From Gloeobacter violaceus PCC 7421 (GTDB taxonomy: Bacteria > Cyanobacteriota > Cyanobacteriia > Gloeobacterales > Gloeobacteraceae): DNA of 64,000 bases. Within the stretch, counting starts at the first letter, position 1; each line of letters begins with the position of its first letter. A program made the position numbers and the translations under genes. Shown here one piece after another: positions 28,488 through 33,475 of the stretch. The notes below the pieces were generated by a model that was not told the origin of the DNA, ran no database searches, and worked only from the letters and a program-made list of their open reading frames with translations. The stretch is taken from assembly GCF_000011385.1 (NCBI RefSeq), contig NC_005125.1:62001-126000 (forward strand). Direction: 5' to 3'.

Positions 28488-28808
28488 ATGCTGAAATATT
28501 CTGCGCTCTCTCTGCCCCTGCTGGTGGGTTTGCTCGCTGCCCCGGTGCTGGCCCAGGGTGAACCGACGGTGGTCACCACTCCGCCCGCCGCCGTCACCCC
28601 CGATGGCCTCGGCGCCCTCGACGAGGCGGCCCCGCTGCCGCCGGGCGAATTCCTCGATGAACTGACCGTAACGGCCACCCGCCGTCCGGCCCGTATCCGC
28701 GATACAACGGTGAATACCTATATCCTGCGCAAGGAAGACTTCAAGGCGGTCGGCGCGGTCACCGTGCGCGACGCCCTTATCCTGGTGCCAGGGTTCTTCG
28801 GAAAATAA
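28488..28808 (+). pseudogene. N-terminal stub of a TonB-dependent receptor
   Basis: 106 residues: a signal peptide (LSLPLLVGLLAAPVLAQ), a Pro-rich segment, then the beginning of a TonB plug domain (LDELTVTATRRPARIRDTT, VRDALILVPGFFG) ending abruptly at TAA 28806-28808. Intact receptors continue for hundreds of residues with the rest of the plug and a 22-strand barrel. Here aminopeptidase P starts 12 bp later. The gene was probably truncated by a deletion that brought pepP close. A short periplasmic product could still be made. Confidence 0.7.
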
Positions 28809-30208: not shown

Positions 30209-30612
30209 CGCCCGCCAATCGAGAGAGCGTATTGTGGACAGCCCCGCCGGCTAAGTGCAATCGGCTTTATCCTGCCGCTGAAGAAACCAGCAATTGGAAA
30301 CAGCCAATCACTTACCAACTTGTGGGAAGTCGTACCAACTGGAAATCATCCTGTAAAAGGCGGCAATTTCCCCTGGACTTGCAGGACCGATCCTGTTTGT
30401 TTCCAAGAGTAACAATTATCTATAGTTTGATTTCCCAATCGGCATATTTTTCAGGAAATAAGTATACAGGATAGATGGAAGCATCGGTGCACCCGTTCTG
30501 CCCTTAGCTCGGCACGGCAGACAGGGATCAATCGCAACAAAGTTTAGCACCTGAGTTTGAATGAATCCCTTTCGGCCTCTGTTGGAGCTTTTTTCTAACA
30601 GGAGATATGCCC
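30209..30612. other. Intergenic stretch of about 400 bp, AT-richer than its surroundings
   Basis: Between pepP and the caspase-like gene the base composition drops visibly in GC. I see no convincing coding sequence, tRNA or terminator. A short open frame at 30232-30474 lacks a ribosome-binding site and protein-like composition. The 3' end carries the ribosome-binding site (AGGAGA, 30600-30605) of the caspase-like gene. Confidence 0.6.
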
Positions 30613-32766
30613 ATGGCTGACATCAAAGCCCTGATCGTTGCAATCAACGACTACCCGGGTACGACCAACGATTTGCCCAGTTGTCTGGAGGATGCGAGAA
30701 AATTTATCGAAGTGCTGAAATCCCCATCCTACGGACTTCGCACTCAACAGTTGCGCACTCTGTACGACGCTGAAGCCACCATCAAAAATGTCACCGATGG
30801 CCTGGACTGGTTGTTGAGTGGCGTGAGCCGTTCCGCCAACGGCAAGCAGGACGCGCGCCGGATCTTGTATTTTAGCGGACACGGTTTTCGAACCGAACTG
30901 GAAGGCATTTTGCGCGAGTGCCTGTGCCTGCACGACGGCTTTTTCTTCGATCAGCAACTGAGCGCCAAAACCCAGGGATTGCCGCCCGGGATGCTCACAG
31001 TCATCCTGGACAGTTGTCATTCCGGCGGCATGGAGAAGCCATTTTTGCTGGTGGTGTCCACCGACGAGAGCGAAGAGCGCACCCGCAACAAGGTGTGGAT
31101 TCCGGAGGATCTTTCCAAAGAAATTGCCGTGGAGCTGGATCAAACCGTCAGCTTGCCCTTCAAGGCCTTCGGCGGTCCTGTCGAACCGCCCCTGGCCGCC
31201 TCGAAATCGGGCGCAATGCGGTTGATGGCCACGAGCGCCATTGCCCGGCAGAAGGCGGATGCGCCGCGGGTCAACGGCCTGGTGCTCAGCGCCTGCCGGG
31301 CGGAGCAGACCGCCGCTGCCAGCACGTCGCGCACCAACGGCATGTCCGCCTTCACCTACGGCATCGTCACCGCCCTGACCAAGGCGGGCCAGTCGCTGCC
31401 CTCCTACGACCGCTTATCCAACGCTCGGCTGTTGCAGGCGGTCGCCGCCGAACTGTCCAATCTCAACTTCAAACAGACCCCGGAGGTCAAAGAACCCGAC
31501 ACTCCCCAAGATCTCGGTTCTTACACCTTTATCACGCTGCAGCCGATGGGTTCGATCCCGCCGCCCCCGCCCGACGCACCTGCCACCGGCTCCAGCAACT
31601 GGCTGAACAGCTTGTGGGATATGCTCCGCGGCACGACCGGTAAATCCTTTACAGGAGAACAAGCCATGGTTTCTTCGATGAGCACCTGGACGATCGCCAA
31701 ATCGCAGACTGACAGAAACGCGGTCGAGGAAAAATTCTTCGGCTCGGTGCTGCGCGCCGCGGTGCGCCTTGCCCCGATGATTGCCAATGTCGTTAGCCAA
31801 CTGAACAAGGACTACCAGCCGGACGGTACCTCCCAGCAACAGGAAAAATTCCTGGGTGCCCTCATCGGCATCGGCAGCGGTGTGATTCCCTATATTCCGA
31901 GGATCATCCGGGCTTTGCGTAAGGATTTCGAGGTCGATGCGTCGCCGGAGGCCGATGAGAAATTCCTGGGTGCGGCGTTGCGCATGGCGTTGCATCTGGC
32001 ACCAACCGTTTCGCAGATCATCGAGGGTCTGCGCAAGGACTACCAGCCGGACGGCAGCGGCACACCCGAGGGCGAAGAGAAATTCATTGGAGCTGTTCTG
32101 CAGACAGCCCTGACGCTCTCTCCCACCCTTTCGAACCTGTTGGAAAGGCTGCGCCAGGATCTGCGCAAGGATTACGAACCGGCTGCCTCCGAAGAAGATG
32201 AGCAGAAATTCTTCGGTGCCGTCCTGCGGGCGGGCCTCCGACTGGCGCCGGCCATCGCCGGTATTGTCCAGGCTCTAGGCAAGGACTTCCAGATGGGAGA
32301 GTCCGAACAGGCCGACGAAAAGTTCTTCGGCTCGCTGCTGCGGGTGATCCGGCAGGTCGCTCCGGTAGTTGGTGAGATCGTCCAGGAACTGCGCAAGGAC
32401 TATCAGATCGACAAGGCTGTGGTTGATGAGGAGGTCGAGGAGAAATTCTTCGGCTCGGTGCTGCGCGCTGCGGTGCGCCTCGCCCCGATGATCGTCAATG
32501 TCGTTGGCCAACTGAACAAGGACTACCAGCCGGACGGTGCCTCCCAGCAACAGGAAAAATTCCTGGGTGCGCTTATCGCGGCGGTCACCACCATCGCCCC
32601 GGCGATCCCCGACATCATCCAGGCGTTCCGCAAAGACTTCGAAGCCGACGGCACGGCCGAAAAGCTCTTGAGCGAGCAGGTCTCCAACGGGCATGGACGC
32701 AAACTCCCGATCCCGGTGTCGCGCGTGTCCTCCCATGAGCTACCGGTGGGAGCAGGAATGAGCTGA
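30613..32766 (+). CDS. Caspase-like (peptidase C14/orthocaspase) protein with eight C-terminal helical repeats
   Basis: 717 residues from ATG 30613, chosen because AGGAGA is 7 nt upstream; the ATG at 30607 is too close. The p20-like caspase domain covers about residues 1-240, with the catalytic dyad H90 in LYFSGHGFR and C135 in ILDSCHSGGM. Metacaspases and orthocaspases cut after Arg or Lys. A Pro-rich linker (PPPPPDAP, about residue 318) leads to eight repeats (residues about 372-683) of the form EEKFFGxVLRxAxRLAPxI followed by a basic KD[YF]. There is no signal peptide. An internal ribosome-binding site and ATG (31666) sit just before the repeats. The neighbouring mazEF pair suggests a stress or defence setting; this is inference. 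Confidence 0.88.
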   Translation: MADIKALIVAINDYPGTTNDLPSCLEDARKFIEVLKSPSYGLRTQQLRTLYDAEATIKNVTDGLDWLLSGVSRSANGKQDARRILYFSGHGFRTELEGILRECLCLHDGFFFDQQLSAKTQGLPPGMLTVILDSCHSGGMEKPFLLVVSTDESEERTRNKVWIPEDLSKEIAVELDQTVSLPFKAFGGPVEPPLAASKSGAMRLMATSAIARQKADAPRVNGLVLSACRAEQTAAASTSRTNGMSAFTYGIVTALTKAGQSLPSYDRLSNARLLQAVAAELSNLNFKQTPEVKEPDTPQDLGSYTFITLQPMGSIPPPPPDAPATGSSNWLNSLWDMLRGTTGKSFTGEQAMVSSMSTWTIAKSQTDRNAVEEKFFGSVLRAAVRLAPMIANVVSQLNKDYQPDGTSQQQEKFLGALIGIGSGVIPYIPRIIRALRKDFEVDASPEADEKFLGAALRMALHLAPTVSQIIEGLRKDYQPDGSGTPEGEEKFIGAVLQTALTLSPTLSNLLERLRQDLRKDYEPAASEEDEQKFFGAVLRAGLRLAPAIAGIVQALGKDFQMGESEQADEKFFGSLLRVIRQVAPVVGEIVQELRKDYQIDKAVVDEEVEEKFFGSVLRAAVRLAPMIVNVVGQLNKDYQPDGASQQQEKFLGALIAAVTTIAPAIPDIIQAFRKDFEADGTAEKLLSEQVSNGHGRKLPIPVSRVSSHELPVGAGMS
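31653..31668 (+). promoter_or_regulatory. Internal ribosome-binding site and in-frame ATG before the repeat domain
   Basis: AGGAGA at 31653-31658, a 7-nt spacer, then ATGG at 31666, in frame with the caspase-like gene (residue 352). The gene's own start has the same arrangement, AGGAGA-N7-ATGG. This could start a separate repeat-only protein of 366 residues. Confidence 0.5.
31726..32661 (+). repeat. Eight in-frame coding repeats (38-42 codons each)
   Basis: Anchored on the Lys of EKF, the units begin near residues 374, 412, 450, 490, 532, 570, 611 and 649 (numbered from ATG 30613), giving spacings of 38, 38, 40, 42, 38, 41 and 38. Each has the acidic-EKF[FLI]G head, a hydrophobic or amphipathic helix of about 20 residues often with LAP in the middle, and a basic-acidic tail (RKDY, NKDY or RKDF). 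Units 1-2 and 7-8 are nearly identical at DNA level. Confidence 0.9.
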
Positions 32767-32906: not shown

Positions 32907-33146
32907 GTGAAGTCGCAAGTGGCCCGCTGGGGGAATTCCCTCGCTTTTCGCATTCCCAGGCAGATTGTGATCCAACTTGGTCTCAAGCCCCACACCACAC
33001 TCCTATGCAGTGTAGAAGCCGGGGCTCTGGTTGTTCGGCCTGTGCGGGAGGTCAAAGAGTACAGCCTTGAGGAGTTACTTGTCGGCCCGCTTGAAGTCGA
33101 AGACGAGGTCGATTGGGGCAAACCCGAAGGGAAAGAAGCTTGGTAG
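32907..33146 (+). CDS. mazE: MazE-type antitoxin (AbrB/SpoVT fold)
   Basis: 79 residues from GTG 32907 with GGAGGAAA just upstream. The N-terminus (VARWGNSLAFRIPRQIVIQL) is the swapped-hairpin AbrB/MazE DNA-binding motif. The acidic C-terminal tail (EDEVDWGKPEGKE) fits toxin binding. The toxin gene overlaps its 3' end. Confidence 0.88.
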   Translation: MKSQVARWGNSLAFRIPRQIVIQLGLKPHTTLLCSVEAGALVVRPVREVKEYSLEELLVGPLEVEDEVDWGKPEGKEAW

Positions 33147-33475
33147 AGTACGTTCCCCGGCGCGGCGAATTCATTTGGCTCAGTTTTGATCCACAAGCCG
33201 GGCATGAGCAGATAGGGGTTCGCCCAGCCCTGGTGGTCAGCCAGACTCTGTTTAATGAAAGGCTTGGCTTTGTCTTCGTTTGTCCTGTCAGCAACACGCA
33301 GCGCAAAAATCCGTTCTACGTACTTATCCCTGAAGGACAGGCAGTGACAGGGGTAATCATGGCCGATCAACTGCGCTCGCTTGATTACCGAGCCCGGCGG
33401 GCAGCCGCGATCAGTTTATGCTCTGAGGAACTGCTGATAGAGGTGCTGCGCAAAATTCAGCCGATTCTTTTTTGA
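33140..33475 (+). CDS. mazF: MazF-type endoribonuclease toxin
   Basis: 111 residues from TTG 33140, which overlaps the antitoxin stop and has AAGGGA upstream. Motifs include YVPRRGEFIWLSFDPQAGHE, RPALVVSQ, FVCPVSN and VIMADQLRSLDY, all typical of MazF/PemK ribonucleases that cut mRNA. Together with the upstream gene it forms a complete type II module. Confidence 0.9.
   Translation: MVEYVPRRGEFIWLSFDPQAGHEQIGVRPALVVSQTLFNERLGFVFVCPVSNTQRKNPFYVLIPEGQAVTGVIMADQLRSLDYRARRAAAISLCSEELLIEVLRKIQPILF

Follow-up and report, generated by a model that had tools for sequence, protein, structure and literature searches.

A metacaspase-like protease of Gloeobacter violaceus with eight predicted amphipathic helical repeats, and plasmid-borne relatives with a repeat gene next door

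The window analysed here is a 64,000-nucleotide stretch (positions 62001-126000) of the one-contig genome of Gloeobacter violaceus PCC 7421, which comprises 4,659,019 bases. On its forward strand lies a gene for a caspase-fold protease with eight C-terminal helical repeats (30613..32766), encoding 717 aa, or 719 aa if translation begins at an in-frame ATG at 30607; in what follows, the residue numbers H90 and C135 count from ATG 30613, while the Pfam span 7-296 counts in the 719-aa form. The p20-like catalytic domain (aa 5-145, 30625..31047), delimited by Pfam and alignment and modelled by AlphaFold with pLDDT mostly 70-95, includes the codons of H90 (30880-30882) and C135 (31015-31017). It is followed by a linker predicted to be disordered (aa 141-218, 31033..31266, pLDDT ~35) and by a p10-like region (aa 220-296, 31270..31500) that contains NGLVLSAC...SAFTYG and QTPEVKEP and is common to the rhizobial and Paraburkholderia relatives described below. 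A poorly conserved Pro-rich linker (aa 313-369, 31549..31719) then leads to the eight tandem helical units (31732..32664)—whose KF[FLI]G motifs stand at aa 374, 412, 450, 490, 532, 570, 611 and 649—and to a C-terminal tail (32665..32763) largely without predicted structure in the AlphaFold model. Further along the same strand, 140 bp past the protease stop, is a MazE-like antitoxin gene (32907..33146), overlapped by a MazF-like toxin gene whose start codon is uncertain (33113..33475). Three further caspase genes are found in the same genome, each within a frame of ~1700 residues.

The protease belongs to peptidase family C14, with a p20 domain of caspase fold and a His-Cys dyad: its match to Peptidase_C14 (PF00656), which has E=1.3e-25 and 90.9 bits against a cut-off of 21.4, spans residues 7-296 in the 719-aa numbering. 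H90 lies in FSGHG and C135 in DSCHSG, both are conserved across all aligned relatives, and the catalytic pair named in the first-pass annotation is thus correct when residues are counted from 30613. The same annotation called the domain an orthocaspase, for which there is a better label. Because the p10-like region aligns to AtMC4 and AtMC9, weakly by sequence and also by fold, the enzyme is not of the p20-only type, and on the strength of its sequence and its model it is better named metacaspase-like. The closest solved chains by sequence are AtMC4 and AtMC9, with a p20 match plus a weaker p10 match (6w8s, E=2.3e-9), and a Foldseek search with the predicted model puts AtMC9 first (9n3d, E=9.8e-14, 331 columns). 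D133, two residues ahead of the catalytic Cys and conserved among relatives, occupies a position that we assign to the acidic S1 pocket of metacaspases, and since it fits such a pocket the protease is predicted to cut after Lys or Arg. Lys or Arg at P1 is the rule among all characterised non-animal members, and AtMC9 is calcium-independent (PMC5756287). Klemencic et al. (2019) term prokaryotic proteins with p20 and p10 metacaspases, type II being those in which p20 precedes p10 across a linker of >66 residues (PMC6426788); the Gloeobacter protein has this order, and its p20-p10 linker of ~75 residues, predicted by AlphaFold to be disordered, is beyond that limit. Only 10 bacterial metacaspases with a linker of >66 residues were counted in that study, which left them unanalysed (PMC6426788). 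Likeness to the plant type II metacaspases AtMC4 and AtMC9 extends from sequence and fold to domain order and dyad, but the plant enzymes are without C-terminal helix repeats, and the Gloeobacter enzyme is bacterial and, like the rhizobial enzymes, has Ala in place of the Asp in the p10 S-A-D-A motif, a site inspected for the acidic calcium-binding residues of type II p10 domains.

The eight units that follow the Pro-rich linker are 38-42 residues long, as originally described, with start-to-start spacings of 38, 38, 40, 42, 38, 41 and 38, and both translation and leave-one-out profiles bear them out. Chance is far from explaining the repeats: matched with a profile built on its seven companions, every unit obtains 40-77 bits, and the best of 2000 shuffles obtains no more than 11. 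K, F, G, a central P and K-D stand unchanged in each unit, but unit 5 opens with QKFFG and not with the EKF[FLI]G ascribed to every unit. Each unit consists of one helix of ~25-30 residues ended by K-D-[Y/F]-[Q/E], just before which unit 4 bears a 4-residue insertion. Units 1-2 recur as units 7-8 in a direct repeat of 146 nt (31722..31867 and 32433..32578, forward strand) with 94% identity. A profile search with the repeat unit, a check proposed in the first-pass annotation, gave no credible match in Pfam, NCBIfam, PADLOC or PDB; Ppx_C (E 0.007) and PqqD (E 0.07) were considered and set aside as weak matches under their cut-offs. The claim that no family with this protease-repeat architecture had been described likewise held in these four libraries, as it did in the literature searched, which lay mostly outside subscription journals. 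Nor did repeats appear outside the protease gene in the organism's own genome, in 291 other cyanobacterial genomes sampled or in viral contigs; in plasmids there was nothing significant (best E 0.2).

Structure prediction, also proposed at the outset, models the units as single helices. The full-length AlphaFold model, which is of low confidence, shows roughly one long helix in each unit, loops joining the helices, and no sign of ordered packing of the repeats on the protease, and a two-unit piece (pLDDT 71) likewise gives individual helices. Packing of the repeats into a solenoid is unsupported by the two-unit model (pTM 0.39, from a shallow alignment). A helix lipid-binding discriminant exceeds 0.68 in 8/8 units, compared with 26% of background segments taken from other ORFs of the same window, and unit hydropathy is mostly under the usual transmembrane level; the units therefore look interfacial and amphipathic rather than membrane-spanning, so that the amphipathic character proposed for them is supported by both the discriminant and the AlphaFold predictions. 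The companion proposal was that every unit boundary carries a Lys or Arg; there is one invariant K-D per unit (eight in the repeats and none elsewhere in the protein). As an argument for cleavage it is weak alone, because Arg and Lys also occur within the helices, where cutting would destroy them.

Among cyanobacteria, the full architecture turned up in no more than three genomes, all of the Gloeobacter group: that of the window, G003 (L014) and G001 (L024). The full-length homologue in L014 is 92% identical and has eight units as well, whereas L024, from a metagenome-assembled genome, has two in a reading frame that is open. These two units are a unit 1/unit 7 chimera, consistent with recombination between the direct-repeat copies described above; assembly collapse may be the cause instead, even though no identical stretch shared by these copies in the window exceeds 32 bp. 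A belt of eight units is thus not required, as one relative keeps only two. A close homologue of the protease is missing from a fourth genome, G002; an empty-site comparison yielded no insertion site, as the flanking genes lie apart in both G002 and G004. Compared with L014, the repeats of the window have a dN/dS of 0.16 (0.18 in the helices, 0.11 in the spacers), below the 0.225 of the protease, and the Pro-rich linker has 0.45; repeats and spacers alike are therefore maintained by purifying selection.

Conservation of the spacers like the helices would fit a role in spacing or binding, and hence an explanation in which the array is a regulatory or scaffolding tail that clusters the protease and anchors it to the membrane or a partner, controlling its activation by proximity, and is itself uncut, some other protein being the target. 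In line with such a tail, cyanobacterial caspase homologues with an active dyad mostly bear C-terminal accessory domains, such as WD40, AAA_16, FGE-sulfatase or pentapeptide repeats (PMC8283722), and the two-unit allele of L024 still leaves an open gene. An invariant K-D in every unit, however, has no obvious scaffolding role, and a tail acting in cis has no need of an array on a separate polypeptide, which is the arrangement in rhizobia and Paraburkholderia. On balance we consider a scaffolding tail somewhat doubtful.

That separate arrangement emerged from a tblastn search of plasmids, alongside which cyanobacterial genomes and viral contigs were surveyed. Plasmids of Sinorhizobium, Bradyrhizobium and Paraburkholderia (L025, L026, L027, L040, L055) carry caspases that belong to the subfamily of the Gloeobacter enzyme and have its p10-like part too, with 32-38% identity to it over ~300 aa, and plasmid and Gloeobacter caspases share one side of a branch supported at 91/83, which is not a starred branch. 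These are the closest full-domain relatives found, and in all three genera they are stand-alone enzymes with a helical-repeat gene 40-82 bp downstream, the rhizobial one beginning 40 bp past the caspase stop. The downstream genes are uncharacterised, and their translation reveals tandem helical repeats. The rhizobial unit, exactly 54 residues long, consists of EQKLFG plus a helix ended by K-[D/G]-Q-Q and is present in 5, 8, 11 or 16 copies, of which neighbours share up to 100% DNA identity; in the Paraburkholderia protein the helices are ended by K-[D/G]-x-Q. We regard the partnership of protease and repeats as real and well supported by these sequences, fused in Gloeobacter and in an adjacent gene in other bacteria.

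Whether the repeat units themselves share ancestry is a separate matter. Profiles of the Gloeobacter and rhizobial units compared with hhalign give a probability of 42%, which is not significant. The Gloeobacter profile scores 8.7 bits on the Paraburkholderia repeat protein (reached by 0/2000 shuffles) and 6.2 bits on that of Sinorhizobium (1/2000), with no match on that of Bradyrhizobium, and the reverse HMM search was not significant. What Gloeobacter, rhizobia and Paraburkholderia have in common is the helix end K-[D/G]-x-[Q/E], of which the Paraburkholderia protein has 3 examples, compared with 0/20000 shuffles and 1/382 background segments, with a pattern that was not fully blind, having been derived from the Gloeobacter and rhizobial units when the Paraburkholderia sequence was already known. 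Common descent of the units is likely on this sequence evidence, although, since their homology is not significant by profile comparison, the pairing of protease and array could be convergent. The plasmid pairs thus resemble the Gloeobacter protein in caspase subfamily and in the way their helices end, and differ from it in having two genes instead of one, in the 54-residue unit of rhizobia and in a unit homology that is statistically unproven.

Fast copy-number change in the rhizobial arrays bears on two further explanations. According to the first, the system is a self-processing polyprotein whose protease cuts its own helices (in rhizobia, those of its neighbour) at one K-[D/G] per unit and frees many short lytic or membrane-binding peptides, the dose being set by copy number; we think this explanation quite unlikely. 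According to the second, the repeats serve the protease as a decoy substrate with many sites, or as an autoinhibitor, occupying the active site until a signal arrives. One candidate basic site per unit, together with rapid change in copy number, would tune the dose of such an inhibitor, yet a decoy has no use for hydrophobic, amphipathic helices, and the absence of ordered packing on the protease in the low-confidence model also argues against it, making a decoy very unlikely.

The mazEF pair, reported from the start as lying directly downstream, is indeed there (32907-33475), and its genes are clear relatives of their families that score below the NCBIfam equivalog cut-offs (MazF 93.9 bits against 120, MazE 45.2 against 113). 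It adjoins the protease in 3/3 Gloeobacter-group genomes that have the protease, including L014 and L024, and G002 is without a close mazF homologue, as it is without a close homologue of the protease. A precedent exists in MaOC1, an orthocaspase of Microcystis that cuts the ParD-like antitoxin encoded next to it, whereupon growth stops (PMC7935541). Because MaOC1 cleaves the antitoxin of its neighbouring pair, MazE is a reasonable candidate substrate, and the first-pass annotation may have underrated the relevance of the mazEF pair. Both systems have a cyanobacterial caspase homologue followed directly by a type II toxin-antitoxin pair (PMC7935541). They differ in that MaOC1, described as lacking p10, has no extra C-terminal domain and a ParDE-like pair, while the Gloeobacter protease has p10-like and repeat regions and a MazEF-like pair. 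Flanking direct repeats of the kind seen around the MaOC1 module were not found, the only ones detected being inside the protease gene, and there was no convincing promoter or terminator between this gene and mazEF.

These observations could mean that the protease is the trigger of a toxin-antitoxin system, cleaving MazE to free MazF, with the repeats merely localising or regulating it. Recurrent adjacency and joint absence of close homologues from G002 speak for such a trigger, as does MaOC1. Nevertheless, with a gap of 140 bp mazEF could be a unit of its own, the rhizobial and Paraburkholderia relatives have no annotated toxin-antitoxin pair next to them, and in L024 the protease gene is still open even though mazF is split between two frames (L024:2026-2384), either as a broken gene or through assembly error. 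We therefore judge a protease-triggered toxin-antitoxin system unlikely as the main explanation.

The reading that we prefer, and hold tentatively at a little short of an even chance, is that the metacaspase-like protease and a membrane-acting helix array form one module, perhaps for controlled cell death, whether by release of the helices or by binding of an intact array. A scaffolding tail and MazE cleavage as the main output run it close and are compatible with it, so the confidences attached to them are not meant to sum to one. Sequence establishes the protease fold and dyad, the helix units, the recurrent pairing, purifying selection on the repeats and the conserved mazEF neighbour, while activation, cleavage sites, membrane action and a cell-death output are our inference. 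A stress signal would activate the protease, possibly via self-processing in the disordered p20-p10 linker, and the helix array would be the effector at the cell membrane, either once cleavage at the conserved K-[D/G] of the helix ends has detached it or split it up, or intact, as a multivalent membrane binder; in Gloeobacter, MazE would be a plausible second substrate whose cleavage would lead to growth arrest. Against this reading speak the profile comparison of Gloeobacter and rhizobial units, the relative with only two units, a hydropathy mostly under the transmembrane level and the Arg residues within the helices, which a protease with a loose preference for basic P1 residues would cut as well. 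A parallel to this module is found in the bacterial gasdermins, whose activation depends on a caspase-like protease encoded next to them (PMC9079055). There, as here, a protease gene lies beside a presumed membrane-acting partner, but no gasdermin match was obtained for the Gloeobacter protein or for the rhizobial and Paraburkholderia repeat proteins, and the partner would be tandem single helices for which pore formation is hypothetical.

Caspase homologues with additional C-terminal domains are an already known kind of protein, while no description seems to exist of the repeat family, of its fused and two-gene forms or of its fast change in copy number. Bacterial caspase homologues are numerous and few have a known substrate or effector; one protease subfamily that goes with helix arrays, both fused and in two genes, names a concrete candidate partner. 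In addition, the rhizobial arrays of 5 to 16 nearly identical units are natural copy-number variants for dose comparison. If the helices are released as membrane peptides, a cyanobacterial lineage that is among the earliest to branch would have a simple, peptide-based equivalent of gasdermin-type death, and if the module is a self-processing polyprotein, it would be a caspase-linked route to cell death distinct from gasdermins.

Several minor observations were made along the way. In the window, a short ORF at 28488-28808 resembles the beginning of a TonB-dependent receptor plug (VTATRRPARIRDT...RDALILVPGFFGK) and is apparently truncated. Peptidoglycan hydrolases lie downstream of the caspase-repeat pair at L026:6618-7160 and L025:7089-7880 (GH108 in Sinorhizobium, a PF11860 muramidase in Paraburkholderia) and are absent in Bradyrhizobium and Gloeobacter, a hint of a lysis-type cassette. 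Such hydrolases accompany several phage caspases as well as two of the plasmid relatives, but none was noticed by the Gloeobacter gene, and we treat a cassette of this kind as a lead only. Ten viral (IMG/VR) contigs carry caspase-like genes (L029-L038), and 4/10 have an endolysin or holin match nearby, a sample too small to exceed chance: in L029 an endolysin overlaps the caspase gene, L035 has a holin, and L034 and L038 have an endolysin. On a Kovacikia minuta plasmid, one ORF (L039:1931-4915) fuses an N-acetylmuramoyl-L-alanine amidase domain to a caspase (Pfam Amidase_2, Peptidase_C14). Finally, a gene near the caspase pair on the Sinorhizobium plasmid (L026:7477-8888) has a weak match to F-box and, after it, numerous helical repeats rich in leucine, and its product looks like a candidate eukaryote-directed effector.
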